Notes under the pieces: model-generated
The model's input: only the letters and a program-made list of their open reading frames with translations
The model's database searches: none
Told to the model about the DNA's origin: nothing
Assembly: GCA_016788375.1 (NCBI GenBank)
Contig: JAEUSI010000002.1
Coordinates: 1 to 64,000 of the forward strand
Direction: 5' to 3'
DNA: 64,000 bases
DNA from: Ignavibacteria bacterium
GTDB lineage: Bacteria; Bacteroidota; Ignavibacteria; Tepidaquicellales; Tepidaquicellaceae
Program-made: the position numbers and the translations under genes
In this document: in pieces, positions 73 through 3,408 of the stretch
Layout of the letters: each line of letters starts with the position of its first letter
Numbering within the stretch: the stretch's first letter is position 1

Positions 73-116
73 GCCTGAAAAGCCGTGTGTCGCCGGTTCG
101 ATTCCGGCCCTGTCCA
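73..116 (+). repeat. tRNA-Phe 3' half, att-like copy 1
   Basis: The 44 bases read as the 3' half of a tRNA-Phe: anticodon loop CTGAAAA (anticodon GAA), variable loop, a perfect T arm (GCCGG, loop TTCGATT, CCGGC), acceptor strand CCTGTCC and discriminator A. CCA is not encoded. The 5' half is not tRNA-like: upstream bases give no D arm, and only a weak GACA-type match to the expected GGACAGG acceptor is seen near 45-51. The break lies at the 5' side of the anticodon loop, which is where tRNA-targeting integrases leave a 3' duplicate. I read it as an attachment-site remnant. An intact tRNA-Phe would lie outside the window. Confidence 0.7.
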
Positions 117-120
117 CAAA

Positions 121-148
121 GACCTCTATAATACGGGGTCTTTTTTTT
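121..148 (+). terminator. intrinsic terminator after tRNA-Phe fragment
   Basis: A six-pair stem (GACCTC at 121-126 with GGGGTC at 135-140, one G-U pair) is followed directly by eight Ts. It has the form of a rho-independent terminator and was probably copied along with the tRNA 3' end. Confidence 0.7.
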
Positions 149-401
149 ATGTATTATTCATATATCAAAGAATCGGTAGAAACCGGAAGTTTGTATATTA
201 GGACAGGCAAACAATCTTGAAAGCAGAGTCCGGAAGCATAATTCCAACAAAGTTTTTTCAATAAAAAACAGAGGAACATGGAAATTAATTTATTTCGAAG
301 AGTTTAAAACAAGGTCAGAAGCGATGAAATATGAGATAGAATAAAAATCCATAAAAAACAAAGAATATCTTTTAAAGCTGATAAAAACAAACAAATTATA
401 A
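149..401 (+). pseudogene. broken GIY-YIG endonuclease gene
   Basis: An ATG at 149 opens a frame reading MYYSYIKES...GSLYI, the start of a GIY-YIG nuclease domain. It breaks near 205, where a frameshift moves the homology to another frame reading NNLESRVRKHNS and TWKLIYFEEFKTRSEAMKYE, typical of the URI/YhbQ-like subfamily. An in-frame TAA at 342-344 then interrupts it, and similarity continues (KSIKNKEYLLKLIKTNK) to TAA at 399-401. The usual catalytic Arg/His region is recognisable, but the gene cannot give a full protein. It lies exactly between two tRNA-Phe 3'-half copies, so it may be the relic of a small mobile cassette. Confidence 0.75.
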
Positions 402-403
402 TC

Positions 404-450
404 GCCTGAAAAGCCCTGGTGTAATCAGGATTCGATACAGTCTCTGTCCA
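404..450 (+). repeat. degenerate tRNA-Phe 3' half, copy 2
   Basis: This is a decayed direct copy of 73-116, offset by 331 bases. GCCTGAAAAGCC is identical at the start, TTCGAT is kept in the T loop, and CTGTCCACAAA is kept at the end, but the T stem no longer pairs well. It follows the last stop of the GIY-YIG relic by two bases. A weak hairpin (463-474) and a T-rich stretch come after it, as after copy 1. Confidence 0.7.
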
Positions 451-455
451 CAAAA

Positions 456-772
456 GTCTCGCCTTAAAATTAAGCTTTTTCTTTTGTAAAATTTGTTTTT
501 TACTTATTTCCTGAACACAATCCGGTTTTATTTGAGTTAATGAGTTTTATTTCAGTCTATACCCTGTTATTTCATGAAGTACCTTTTTTATGTAAAGGAA
601 AACCCAGGTATCTTAATTCAAAGTAAATTCCATGGTTAATACAGCTTAACTGTGATTTCAAAATTTCAACCCGTAAATTATTTTACTATTAATGGCTGAA
701 AAAATCCGGATTTTATAGAACACCTTTAAATTATCATTTAATTAATGAACTATAATTTTTAAATTGTAATAT
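456..772. other. gene-free AT-rich stretch
   Basis: There is no credible reading frame on either strand. The left end holds a weak terminator-like hairpin (CTTAA/TTAAG, 463-474) followed by T-rich sequence. The right end must hold the promoter of the ubiquitin-like gene at 773, but I cannot point to a clear promoter motif. Nothing else is recognisable. Confidence 0.5.
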
Positions 773-1111
773 ATGGCCAGAATAAATATCACAATTGTAG
801 ATGCAACAGGAAATAAAGAGCAGCAGGCGACTTTACCGGATGATGCTTCAGTAAAAAGAATTATGGAAGTACTTCTTCCAAAAATGAAAATGCCGGTCAC
901 CGGTCCTGACGGAGAACCCCTTTCCTATAAATTTCATCATAAAGCATCCGGAAAACAGCTGACGGAAAGTCAGACGCTTGCCGAAGCCGGTGTTAAAGAG
1001 GGAGATGTACTCAGGCTGCATCCCGAGATAACAGCCGGAGCGATTGAATTTCAAATTGCTGTTAAAATTAAGAATTTCAGATATAGCGCAATAAATTTTA
1101 TATTTAATTGA
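773..1111 (+). CDS. YukD/EsaB-type ubiquitin-like protein
   Basis: A 112-residue protein. Residues 1-89 have the beta-grasp pattern of YukD-like ubiquitin relatives: an initial strand ARINITIVDATG, a central helix (KRIMEVLLPKM), and the closing strand GDVLRLHPEITAG. The family includes the small type VII secretion accessory YukD/EsaB and the ubiquitin-like proteins of predicted bacterial conjugation operons. No type VII genes are nearby, whereas the next gene encodes an E1-like enzyme and the one after that a RING-type protein, so the conjugation reading is favoured. Residues 90-112 are AT-rich, non-family-like sequence and may come from a lost stop (see findings). There is no strong ribosome binding site before the ATG. 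Confidence 0.8.
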   Translation: MARINITIVDATGNKEQQATLPDDASVKRIMEVLLPKMKMPVTGPDGEPLSYKFHHKASGKQLTESQTLAEAGVKEGDVLRLHPEITAGAIEFQIAVKIKNFRYSAINFIFN

Positions 1112-1158
1112 TTTTCGTATATAAAGTTGTGTTTCAGTTCCCGGCTTACTTCTAATAA

Positions 1159-1200
1159 CTTTCGGCTTTTCACTTTCATCTTTCAACCTTTAACTTATTC
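1159..1200 (+). repeat. degenerate heptad tandem repeat (CTTTCA-like)
   Basis: Six 7-base units run in phase in the gap between the ubiquitin-like and E1-like genes: CTTTCGG, CTTTTCA, CTTTCAT, CTTTCAA, CCTTTAA and CTTATTC. The unit is pyrimidine-rich on this strand. It lies 33 bases before the next start codon and could affect expression or simply be a decaying intergenic repeat. Confidence 0.55.
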
Positions 1201-1232
1201 ATAATTTCAGATATTTTAATTTAAAAATTTTT

Positions 1233-2396
1233 ATGTCGCTTGAAATAAACGATGACAGATATTCGCGTTTTGAACTTATTAACTGGTGGAATCAGGATAT
1301 TCTTAAAAATGCAAGGATATTAGTTGCCGGCTGCGGTGCACTCGGAAATGAAATTGTTAAAAATCTTGCCATGCTGGGTGTGGGTCACATTTATGTGGTT
1401 GATATGGACAATGTGGAAAAAAGCAATCTTTCCCGAAGTGTGCTTTTCAGAAAAGAAGATGAAGGCAAATCCAAAGCAGAAACAATCTGCAAACGGGCAC
1501 TTGAAATAAACGATGAAATTGACATAAAATATTTCAACGGAAATATTTTCAGTCTGGGACTCGGTGTTTTCCGAAATTCTGATCTGATAATAGGAGGACT
1601 GGATAACCGGGAAGCGAGATTATTTATAAATCAGTCCAGCTGGAAAGTCGGCAGACCATGGATTGACGGCGCAATAGAAGTATTAACCGGAGTTGCGAGA
1701 ATGTTCATTCCTCCGAAGGGTTCATGTTACGAATGTACAATGTCAGAGACAGACTATAAACTCATAAACAAAAGGAAATCATGCATGCTGCTTGGAATAG
1801 ATGAAATTTCCGAAGGGAAAATTCCGACGACACCTACCATTGCTTCAGTTATTGCAGGGGTTCAGGTGCAGGAAGCAGTAAAGTATCTTCATAACAGAGA
1901 TGATCTTGTTCTGCTGAACGGCCGGGGATTCATTTTTAACGGAAACATAAATGATTCATATATTGTAGAGTATCAGAGAATTGAAGATTGTCCTTCGCAT
2001 TATACATTTGACAATATTCATAAAATTAATAAAAAATATGACGAAGTTAAGCTGACGGATGTAATTGATACAGGAAAAAAATATTTTAAAAGTGACGACT
2101 TTGTAATAGAATTTAATAATGAAATAGTTTATGAACTATTAGACGAAAACAACAGACCTGTAAAAGAGTTTTTTGCCAATCTAAATCTGATGTCGGTAAA
2201 GGATGTAAAGACAAATGACGGCAGAATACTCAGCTATAGATCATTTCATAATTTCAGTTCCTCTTCCGGTATCGCCGAAAAAATTTCCGGAATGAAAATA
2301 ATCGATCTGGGAATTCCGCTGAATGATATTATTATACTGCGTAAAGATGATAAAGAAGTTCAGCTTGAGTTTGATCTAATAAGTGTATTCAAGTAA
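1233..2396 (+). CDS. E1-like (ThiF/MoeB/HesA) ubiquitin-activating enzyme
   Basis: A 387-residue adenylating enzyme. Residues 25-222 form the ThiF/E1 Rossmann domain: nucleotide loop GCGALG (33-38), VVDMD (55-59), NLSR (65-68, canonically NLNR), the GKSKAE region, and GLDNREAR (122-129). C165-x2-C168 gives one zinc pair. C253-x2-H256 is a plausible second pair in a Cys/His form. C184, in RKSCML, sits where E1 enzymes carry the thioester cysteine. PTTPTIASVIAGVQVQEAVK matches the family's closing helices. Residues 257-387 form an extra C-terminal domain that I do not recognise. It presumably adenylates the C terminus of the ubiquitin-like protein upstream and passes it on, but no E2 is seen. 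Confidence 0.88.
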   Translation: MSLEINDDRYSRFELINWWNQDILKNARILVAGCGALGNEIVKNLAMLGVGHIYVVDMDNVEKSNLSRSVLFRKEDEGKSKAETICKRALEINDEIDIKYFNGNIFSLGLGVFRNSDLIIGGLDNREARLFINQSSWKVGRPWIDGAIEVLTGVARMFIPPKGSCYECTMSETDYKLINKRKSCMLLGIDEISEGKIPTTPTIASVIAGVQVQEAVKYLHNRDDLVLLNGRGFIFNGNINDSYIVEYQRIEDCPSHYTFDNIHKINKKYDEVKLTDVIDTGKKYFKSDDFVIEFNNEIVYELLDENNRPVKEFFANLNLMSVKDVKTNDGRILSYRSFHNFSSSSGIAEKISGMKIIDLGIPLNDIIILRKDDKEVQLEFDLISVFK

Positions 2397-2408
2397 ATTT
2401 TTCGCTGA

Positions 2409-3335
2409 TTGAATAAATCTCATTCTAAATATGATTTTCTAAAAAATAAAACCTGCCCATACTGCCAGTCAAGAATAAAGAACGGAGCCGATTTCACCGT
2501 ATGTTCGCATTGCGGGGTGCCCCATCACAAAGAATGCTGGGAAGAAAATAAAGGCTGTACAACTTACGGATGCATCAACAATCCGCATACAGAGAAAAAA
2601 ATTGAAATTAATTCTGCTTTACCGGAAGATGTCGGAGATTTATCACCGGAAGAAATCCGGGAATCCCTGCTTAATCCGGAATCAGTTTTTATTCAATGCA
2701 GGAATTGCAAATCAGAAGTGGAAGAGAGCTCTGTTTATTGTAAATATTGCGGTTATAATCTTAAAGACAATAATGTAACAGGAACTGTTAACGAAGCTTC
2801 CGACGATTTTAAAAAAGATTTCAGCAGAAGATACGAACAAAAGGTCAGGTTGACACGCAAAAGATTTTATATTACCCTCGGCAGCTTTCTGATAATTATA
2901 ACAGCTGTTGCATATTTGTTTTATTCGGGAATTACAAAACTCAACGCTTACTTTTCTTCGGATGAATATTTGATAAAAAGCACGATAGAGAACTGGAAAA
3001 AAGCCTGGGAAAAAGAAGACATTGATAAATACAGGAGCTATATGACTGATGATTATGAATATTTCGGGAAAGACGGAAAACGAATTGATCTCAGGGAAAG
3101 ACTTAAGAGAATTGAATGGACGTTCAAAAACTACAGTGATATTAAAATTGATTTCAAAGACTATAAATTTATTTCTGATTCATCAGTCACGGAAAATGAC
3201 AGGAAAGTGATATTTAATCAGATATATGAATCGGATAAATTTCAGGAAAAGGGAGTCAAGACATTAAGACTTTACAGGGGAGATGAGACAAAATACGAAT
3301 GGAAGATTTACAGGGAATTCTTTGAGAAAAACTGA
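2409..3335 (+). CDS. membrane RING-type zinc finger protein with NTF2-like domain
   Basis: A 308-residue protein starting at TTG, 12 bases after the E1-like gene. Residues 16-55 carry a cross-brace pattern C-x2-C...C-x2-C-x4-H-x2-C...C-x4-C (C16, C19, C32, C35, H40, C43, C50, C55), as in prokaryotic RING family 1. Residues 97-114 form a zinc ribbon (C97, C100, C111, C114). One membrane helix spans about 153-175. Residues 185-308 resemble SnoaL/NTF2-like domains (NWKKAWEKEDIDKYRSYM...). The topology would put both zinc modules in the cytoplasm and the NTF2-like domain outside. Next to the ubiquitin-like and E1-like genes it is a candidate E3-like adaptor. Whether it has ligase activity is not shown. 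Confidence 0.78.
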   Translation: MNKSHSKYDFLKNKTCPYCQSRIKNGADFTVCSHCGVPHHKECWEENKGCTTYGCINNPHTEKKIEINSALPEDVGDLSPEEIRESLLNPESVFIQCRNCKSEVEESSVYCKYCGYNLKDNNVTGTVNEASDDFKKDFSRRYEQKVRLTRKRFYITLGSFLIIITAVAYLFYSGITKLNAYFSSDEYLIKSTIENWKKAWEKEDIDKYRSYMTDDYEYFGKDGKRIDLRERLKRIEWTFKNYSDIKIDFKDYKFISDSSVTENDRKVIFNQIYESDKFQEKGVKTLRLYRGDETKYEWKIYREFFEKN

Positions 3336-3362
3336 ATTTGCAGCACACATTTATTTTGAAAT

Positions 3363-3396
3363 ATTCACGGGAAATTTTAAATTTTTTCCCGTGAAT
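3363..3396. terminator. bidirectional terminator
   Basis: A perfect inverted repeat, ATTCACGGGAAA (3363-3374) and TTTCCCGTGAAT (3385-3396), with A/T tracts on both sides of the loop. It lies between the convergent RING-protein gene and menA and probably ends both transcripts. Confidence 0.75.
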
Positions 3397-3408
3397 AATT
3401 ATTCTTTA

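Follow-up and report, generated by a model that had tools for sequence, protein, structure and literature searches.

Three co-directional genes of an uncultured Ignavibacteria bacterium (MAG) probably make up a part of a complete, eukaryote-like conjugation system of the ubiquitin type, the genes of which lie dispersed in the chromosome. They encode a ubiquitin-like modifier (Ubl), an E1-like activating enzyme and a membrane RING protein and lie near the start of the window, i.e. the whole stretch of 64,000 nt from contig JAEUSI010000002.1 that was analysed. In relatives with the same E1, a second locus encodes a JAB metalloprotease and an E2, and a third locus another RING protein. This reading draws on gene content, motifs, co-occurrence and vertical inheritance together with predicted folds, from which a biochemical route, a topology and substrates may be proposed.

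The Ubl-E1-RING set in the window

The preliminary description had recognised a co-directional set of Ubl, E1 and RING genes, and this holds, as all three ORFs are on the plus strand and each product contains the respective Pfam domain. The features are as follows:

773..1111, +, Ubl gene (ORF call; Pfam YukD 5.9e-13)
1233..2396, +, E1-like activating enzyme, 387 aa, with one adenylation (ThiF) domain and a C-terminal UFD-like domain (Pfam ThiF 1.2e-49)
1725..1736, +, Cys165-x2-Cys168, first half of the E1 zinc site (at least 90% conserved)
1782..1784, +, Cys184 codon, candidate for the thioester cysteine (RKSCMLL...TTPT; invariant in 48/48 homologs)
1989..2000, +, Cys253-x2-His256, second half of the E1 zinc site (at least 90% conserved)
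2001..2393, +, E1 C-terminal domain, residues 257-387, UFD-like (predicted structure and fold matches)
2409..3335, +, 308-aa membrane RING protein and E3 candidate (Pfam Prok-RING_1 1e-10)
2445..2573, +, RING (C4HC3) domain, residues 13-55 (Prok-RING_1)
2691..2762, +, RING protein, zinc ribbon at residues 95-118 (Zn_ribbon_3 1.8e-05)
2865..2933, +, RING protein, predicted transmembrane helix at approximately residues 153-175 (hydropathy maximum of 2.13 at residue 153)
2973..3314, +, RING protein, NTF2-like domain at residues 189-302, predicted to be periplasmic from the inferred topology (Cds6_C 5.4e-08, DUF4440 7.4e-07)
3359..3400, no strand, hairpin that may act as a terminator, located between the convergent RING and UbiA genes (arms 3359-3374 and 3385-3400; z -4.1)

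The Ubl core comprises residues 1-89 and ends in ...PEITAG. In an alignment of 39 members the core always ends at Gly, suggesting that the modifier can be activated at its C-terminus, and this is a single Gly (TAG) and not GlyGly, the ...AG end being present in all aligned homologs. The stop follows exactly at the terminal Gly in 7/16 host-family members and 12/23 others, i.e. about half of the Ubls end at Gly, and the remaining ones carry 1 to 23 extra residues. The Ubl studied here has a C-terminal extension of 23 residues past the conserved TAG (window 1029-1111), compared to only three in its nearest relative, and this extension likely arose from a lost stop or a frame change. Trimming of the Ubl by the JAB protein is plausible, though it would not be needed universally because about half of the Ubls already end at Gly. 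Among the three proteins, conservation is highest in the Ubl, with 96-98% identity to four close relatives, as compared to 67-78% for E1 and 50-64% for the RING proteins of the same relatives; such a pattern of constraint would be expected of a shared modifier that has to fit many partners. The modifier belongs to the same fold family (Pfam YukD) as YukD of type VII secretion. In contrast to the latter, it is paired with an E1 and has E1, RING, UbiA and kinase/regulator genes as neighbours, and neither FtsK-type ATPase nor ESAT-6 genes were found among these neighbours.

The conservation listed above upholds both the candidate thioester Cys184 and the E1 zinc site, which had been proposed beforehand. 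The structural model of E1 is confident (mean pLDDT 88.9) except for the loop around Cys184; its best fold match in the PDB, aligned over the whole length, is UBA3 of the NEDD8 E1, and the best solved match of the E1 family profile is eukaryotic UBA7/UBA1 (4e-42). For the C-terminal domain, a search by profile and by structure had been suggested. The sequence search against solved structures returned no match, and only the comparison of folds was successful. The first 19 PDB fold matches of this domain, which was modelled alone with a pLDDT of 90.7, are eukaryotic E1s or isolated E1 ubiquitin-fold domains (UFDs) of SUMO, NEDD8 and ubiquitin E1s; the E-values are modest (0.02-0.2 each, and 0.02-0.1 for the best matches), and the weight lies in the unanimity of the matches. 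In eukaryotes the UFD recruits the E2. The C-terminal domain thus models as a UFD, i.e. the type of E2-docking module found in eukaryotic E1s, which would give the enzyme a C-terminal ubiquitin-like domain in addition to the invariant Cys184. As the domain is UFD-like, it is unlikely to transfer the Ubl itself, as had been considered in the preliminary description. Two CxxC motifs (zinc ribbon) are located inside the C-terminal domain in 34/36 homologs outside the host family and in 0/12 within it, so that their absence is, judged from these sequences, a lineage-specific difference.

The RING protein scores above the Prok-RING_1 cut-off and is one of two such copies in its genome. Its zinc ligands follow the pattern CPYC-x12-CSHC-x4-H-x3-C-x5-C-x4-C, and the C4HC3 ligands are intact in most sampled RING proteins. 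The second Prok-RING_1 protein (L136 8367-9857 on contig G000:C44 in this genome) is encoded at a third locus, which adjoins nusG-rplK-rplA-rplJ-rplL-rpoB in most host-family genomes; it has about 500 aa and contains a hydrophobic stretch resembling a membrane helix. The terminator that had been described as closing the three-gene set can be retained in part: the hairpin at 3359-3400 is strong, but it was not called by the consensus terminator scan because no T-run follows 3' of it.

JAB and E2 genes at a second locus

Protein searches found E1 in most genomes of the host family and on 60 genome contigs overall. The three-gene order, whose conservation was to be checked in relatives, recurs across the family: the host-family E1 loci keep Ubl-E1-RING, and in 14/20 of them the next gene, on the opposite strand, encodes a UbiA prenyltransferase. 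Neither JAB nor E2 was seen at any of these 20 loci. Whole genomes were searched with alignments of operonic E2s and operonic JABs from outside the family. JAB is present in all 20 host-family genomes with a good E1 match and E2 in 19 of them. Five genomes (G008, G015, G020, G023, G025) are without E1, JAB and E2 alike, and one with a partial E1 match (G006) has both JAB and E2. Fisher tests of the co-occurrence with E1 gave p of 5e-4 for E2 and 9e-5 for JAB.

JAB and E2 genes are adjacent in 15 sampled host-family genomes, with a CobA/propeller region on one side and a region encoding a gamma-carbonic-anhydrase-like protein, YbeY and TopA on the other. In a genome with long contigs (G014) the Ubl-E1-RING and JAB-E2 loci are located on different contigs, each more than 1.1 Mb long, and no closer than 190 kb to a contig end. 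In a sample of 294 genomes of the class, the E2 is restricted to the host family. Its active site, FHPN...DICIGDYW, is found in 15/15 sampled copies, small substitutions aside, and the JAMM motif HSHP...S..D in all unbroken JAB copies. The best solved match is Ubc13 for the E2 profile (1e-11) and Rpn11 for the JAB family profile (7e-19). JAB has one predicted membrane helix, and part of the JABs also have a LysM tail. The distances of E1, E2, JAB and RING track those of the housekeeping protein TopA (r 0.72-0.88), and the neighbours of the loci are housekeeping genes.

Known systems and alternative explanations

Outside the host family, i.e. in Planctomycetota, Armatimonadota, Lentisphaerota, Riflebacteria and a few others, E1 lies within longer operons of the order Ubl-E1-JAB-FHA-RING(s)-E2. 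One full operon (L087) encodes Ubl, E1, JAB, an FHA-membrane protein, a membrane RING protein, a RING-trypsin protein, E2, a further RING protein and DUF2752. Among 49 such stretches, many of them cut by contig ends, 38 contain JAB and 27 contain E2. In the host family JAB and E2 are absent from the 20 E1 loci and no single operon is found; we therefore call the system a variant of the eukaryote-like bacterial Ub system. The assignment to the operon type predicted in 2011 by Burroughs, Iyer and Aravind, as made in the preliminary description, is borne out. As far as these operons are covered by a citing paper, which names Actinobacteria, Planctomycetes and Acidobacteria (PMC4197634), Ubl, E1, UBC-type E2, JAB and Prok-RING_1 proteins are common to both, and operonic E1s in Planctomycetota are homologs of the window E1. 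On the same basis, the host family differs in having its genes at three or more loci and stably in the family instead of sporadically, in an E1 C-terminal domain that lacks the zinc ribbon and in a RING-TM-NTF2 protein as E3 candidate. The operon type had already been predicted, and the dispersed arrangement, the stable family-wide inheritance, the zinc-ribbon-less UFD and the RING-TM-NTF2 protein set the host-family form apart. The root of the E1 tree between host family and remaining homologs was set by a very distant outgroup, and the tree is compatible with split as well as operonic ancestry. A literature search, the reach of which ended before the primary papers on the 2011 operons and on Bub, found no description of a ubiquitin-like system in Ignavibacteria.

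The reconstituted ubiquitylation system of the archaeon Caldiarchaeum subterraneum shares the set of Ub, E1, E2, RING and Rpn11-like JAMM proteins, an E1 with a C-terminal ubiquitin-like domain and a modifier precursor bearing a C-terminal extension, but it is archaeal, encoded in one operon and has a small RING protein and a GlyGly modifier (PMC5654768); here, the YukD-type Ubl ends in TAG, and RING and JAB are predicted to be membrane-anchored. Bub operons (named in PMC13373217), which mediate bacterial ubiquitination-like conjugation, often carry CapW, CapH+CapP or CapK+CapS regulators, and none of these regulators is found next to the window genes.

A Bil-type phage-defence system, to which the genes had initially been linked, is an improbable explanation, even though the Ubl-E1-E2-JAB logic is common to both, the adenylation domain is hit by E1-E2 models of PADLOC and a homologous E1-E2-JAB set occurs on a cyanobacterial plasmid. 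In Bil (BilABCD), BilA has two Ubl domains, BilD combines an inactive and an active adenylation domain, BilB has a CEHH active site, and the operon as described contains no RING (PMC11354881). None of the hallmarks, i.e. the two-Ubl modifier, the paired adenylation domains and the CEHH E2, was found here: the modifier is a single Ubl of about 89 aa, the E1 of 387 aa has one ThiF domain, and the E2 is of the canonical HPN type, so Bil identity was rejected on architecture. Moreover, phage records yielded no full-length E1 relative but only partial matches of the ThiF/MoeB type. As the divergence tracks TopA, the neighbours are housekeeping genes and the phage E1 matches are partial, the sequence data favour a resident cellular function, stably and vertically inherited in the host family, over phage defence, though the related set on the plasmid, which is mobilizable, tempers this reading.

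The preliminary description had also noted that no E2 or JAB is visible, which is correct for the window but not for the genome, and had regarded the system as minimal, so that the transfer step might fall to the RING protein or to the C-terminal domain of E1. That this species has indeed lost its E2 is very unlikely. A whole-assembly search found no E2 in its own genome, but E2 is present in the 19 other E1-bearing relatives, including the congener. Besides, the own JAB, with an Rpn11-type JAMM motif (HSHPGHTVFLSSYD), begins contig G000:C317 and is broken off by the contig end on the very side where the congener has E2, the carbonic-anhydrase-like gene that comes next after E2 in relatives was not found in the assembly either, and the E1 C-terminal domain is predicted to be an E2-docking module. 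The TopA-DUF494-YbeY stretch of the second locus is located on contig C31, and the adjoining sequence contains an IS110-like transposase gene downstream of TopA-YbeY (L129 3732-4736, G000:C31), close to the place that the JAB-E2 pair occupies in relatives; because of this transposase-like gene, an assembly gap or a rearrangement at a repeat is likely. We thus reject the E2-less system on the evidence from relatives and contig edge and infer that E2 is present in this genome.

Hardly credible, finally, is a sulfur carrier system with E1 as ThiF/MoeB in thiamine or molybdopterin synthesis and the Ubl as ThiS/MoaD: although the window E1 is the sole ThiF-family protein found in the genome, it scores far below the curated ThiF and MoeB cut-offs (128 of 275 and 69 of 377 bits), on which this identity was rejected and the conjugation-type assignment of the earlier description stands, the 48 homologs are separated, as a 100/100 clade, from four E1-like sequences belonging to the neighbouring family, E1 is linked to a UBC-type E2, JAB and RING, the Ubl is YukD-type, and no free-standing ThiS/MoaD was found in the genome.

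A possible conjugation pathway at the inner membrane

Candidate parts of the dispersed system for activating the Ubl, relaying it as a thioester, transferring it with the help of a RING and removing it again are all present with intact motifs across the family. In the route that we propose, E1 activates the Ubl by adenylating its C-terminal Gly and loads it on Cys184. The UFD-like domain of E1 would dock the E2 (UBC fold) encoded at the second locus, which would receive the Ubl as thioester, and the membrane RING proteins, i.e. the window copy and the third-locus copy, may bring E2~Ubl to inner-membrane proteins. Guessing from domain content, the periplasmic domains of the RING proteins could serve as sensors. 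The JAB metalloprotease would trim Ubl precursors and take off the tag. As RING and JAB each carry a single predicted membrane helix and part of the JABs have a LysM tail, the inner membrane is the most plausible site of action. A specific degradation partner was not seen, since the sole proteasome-fold gene found in the genome, a 182-aa ORF, has the size of HslV; a link to a 20S proteasome was thus dismissed.

To our knowledge, most bacterial ubiquitin-like systems studied to date are mobile immune operons. We speculate that the vertically inherited, dispersed system of the host family may be one of its core housekeeping pathways and act at the inner membrane, where the periplasmic domains of RING and JAB (NTF2-like, LysM) might couple tagging to the state of the envelope. 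If so, an E1(UFD)-E2(HPN)-RING-JAMM set kept through speciation would provide a bacterial model of ubiquitin signalling outside immunity, and, being dispersed like the ubiquitin genes of eukaryotes, it would bear on the transition from operon-encoded to dispersed systems.

Several minor observations concern the homologous operons and the window start. In operons of Riflebacteria and Planctomycetota a RING is fused to a trypsin-like protease (L087 11186-12577; L059 11930-13312), hinting at RING-steered proteolysis; the L059 operon is that of Lacipirellula limnantheis, a cultured species. Another operon contains two divergent E2 genes (L089 5109-5606 and 9957-10493), one with an altered active-site region (VCIGGWSPSE), and L043 and L057 have a similar two-E2 arrangement. 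On the cyanobacterial plasmid (Crinalium pCRI9333.03; L143 5001-8478) the ThiF-E1, E2 and JAB genes lie together, adjoined by two small ORFs in which the Ubl may be encoded. ARAGORN and Rfam detected no intact tRNA or tmRNA at the window start, where an apparent broken GIY-YIG nuclease gene lies between two fragments resembling tRNA 3' ends, one ('cggttcgattccggccctgtccacaaa') near 90-118 and the other, a weaker copy, near 433-460 (window 90-470).
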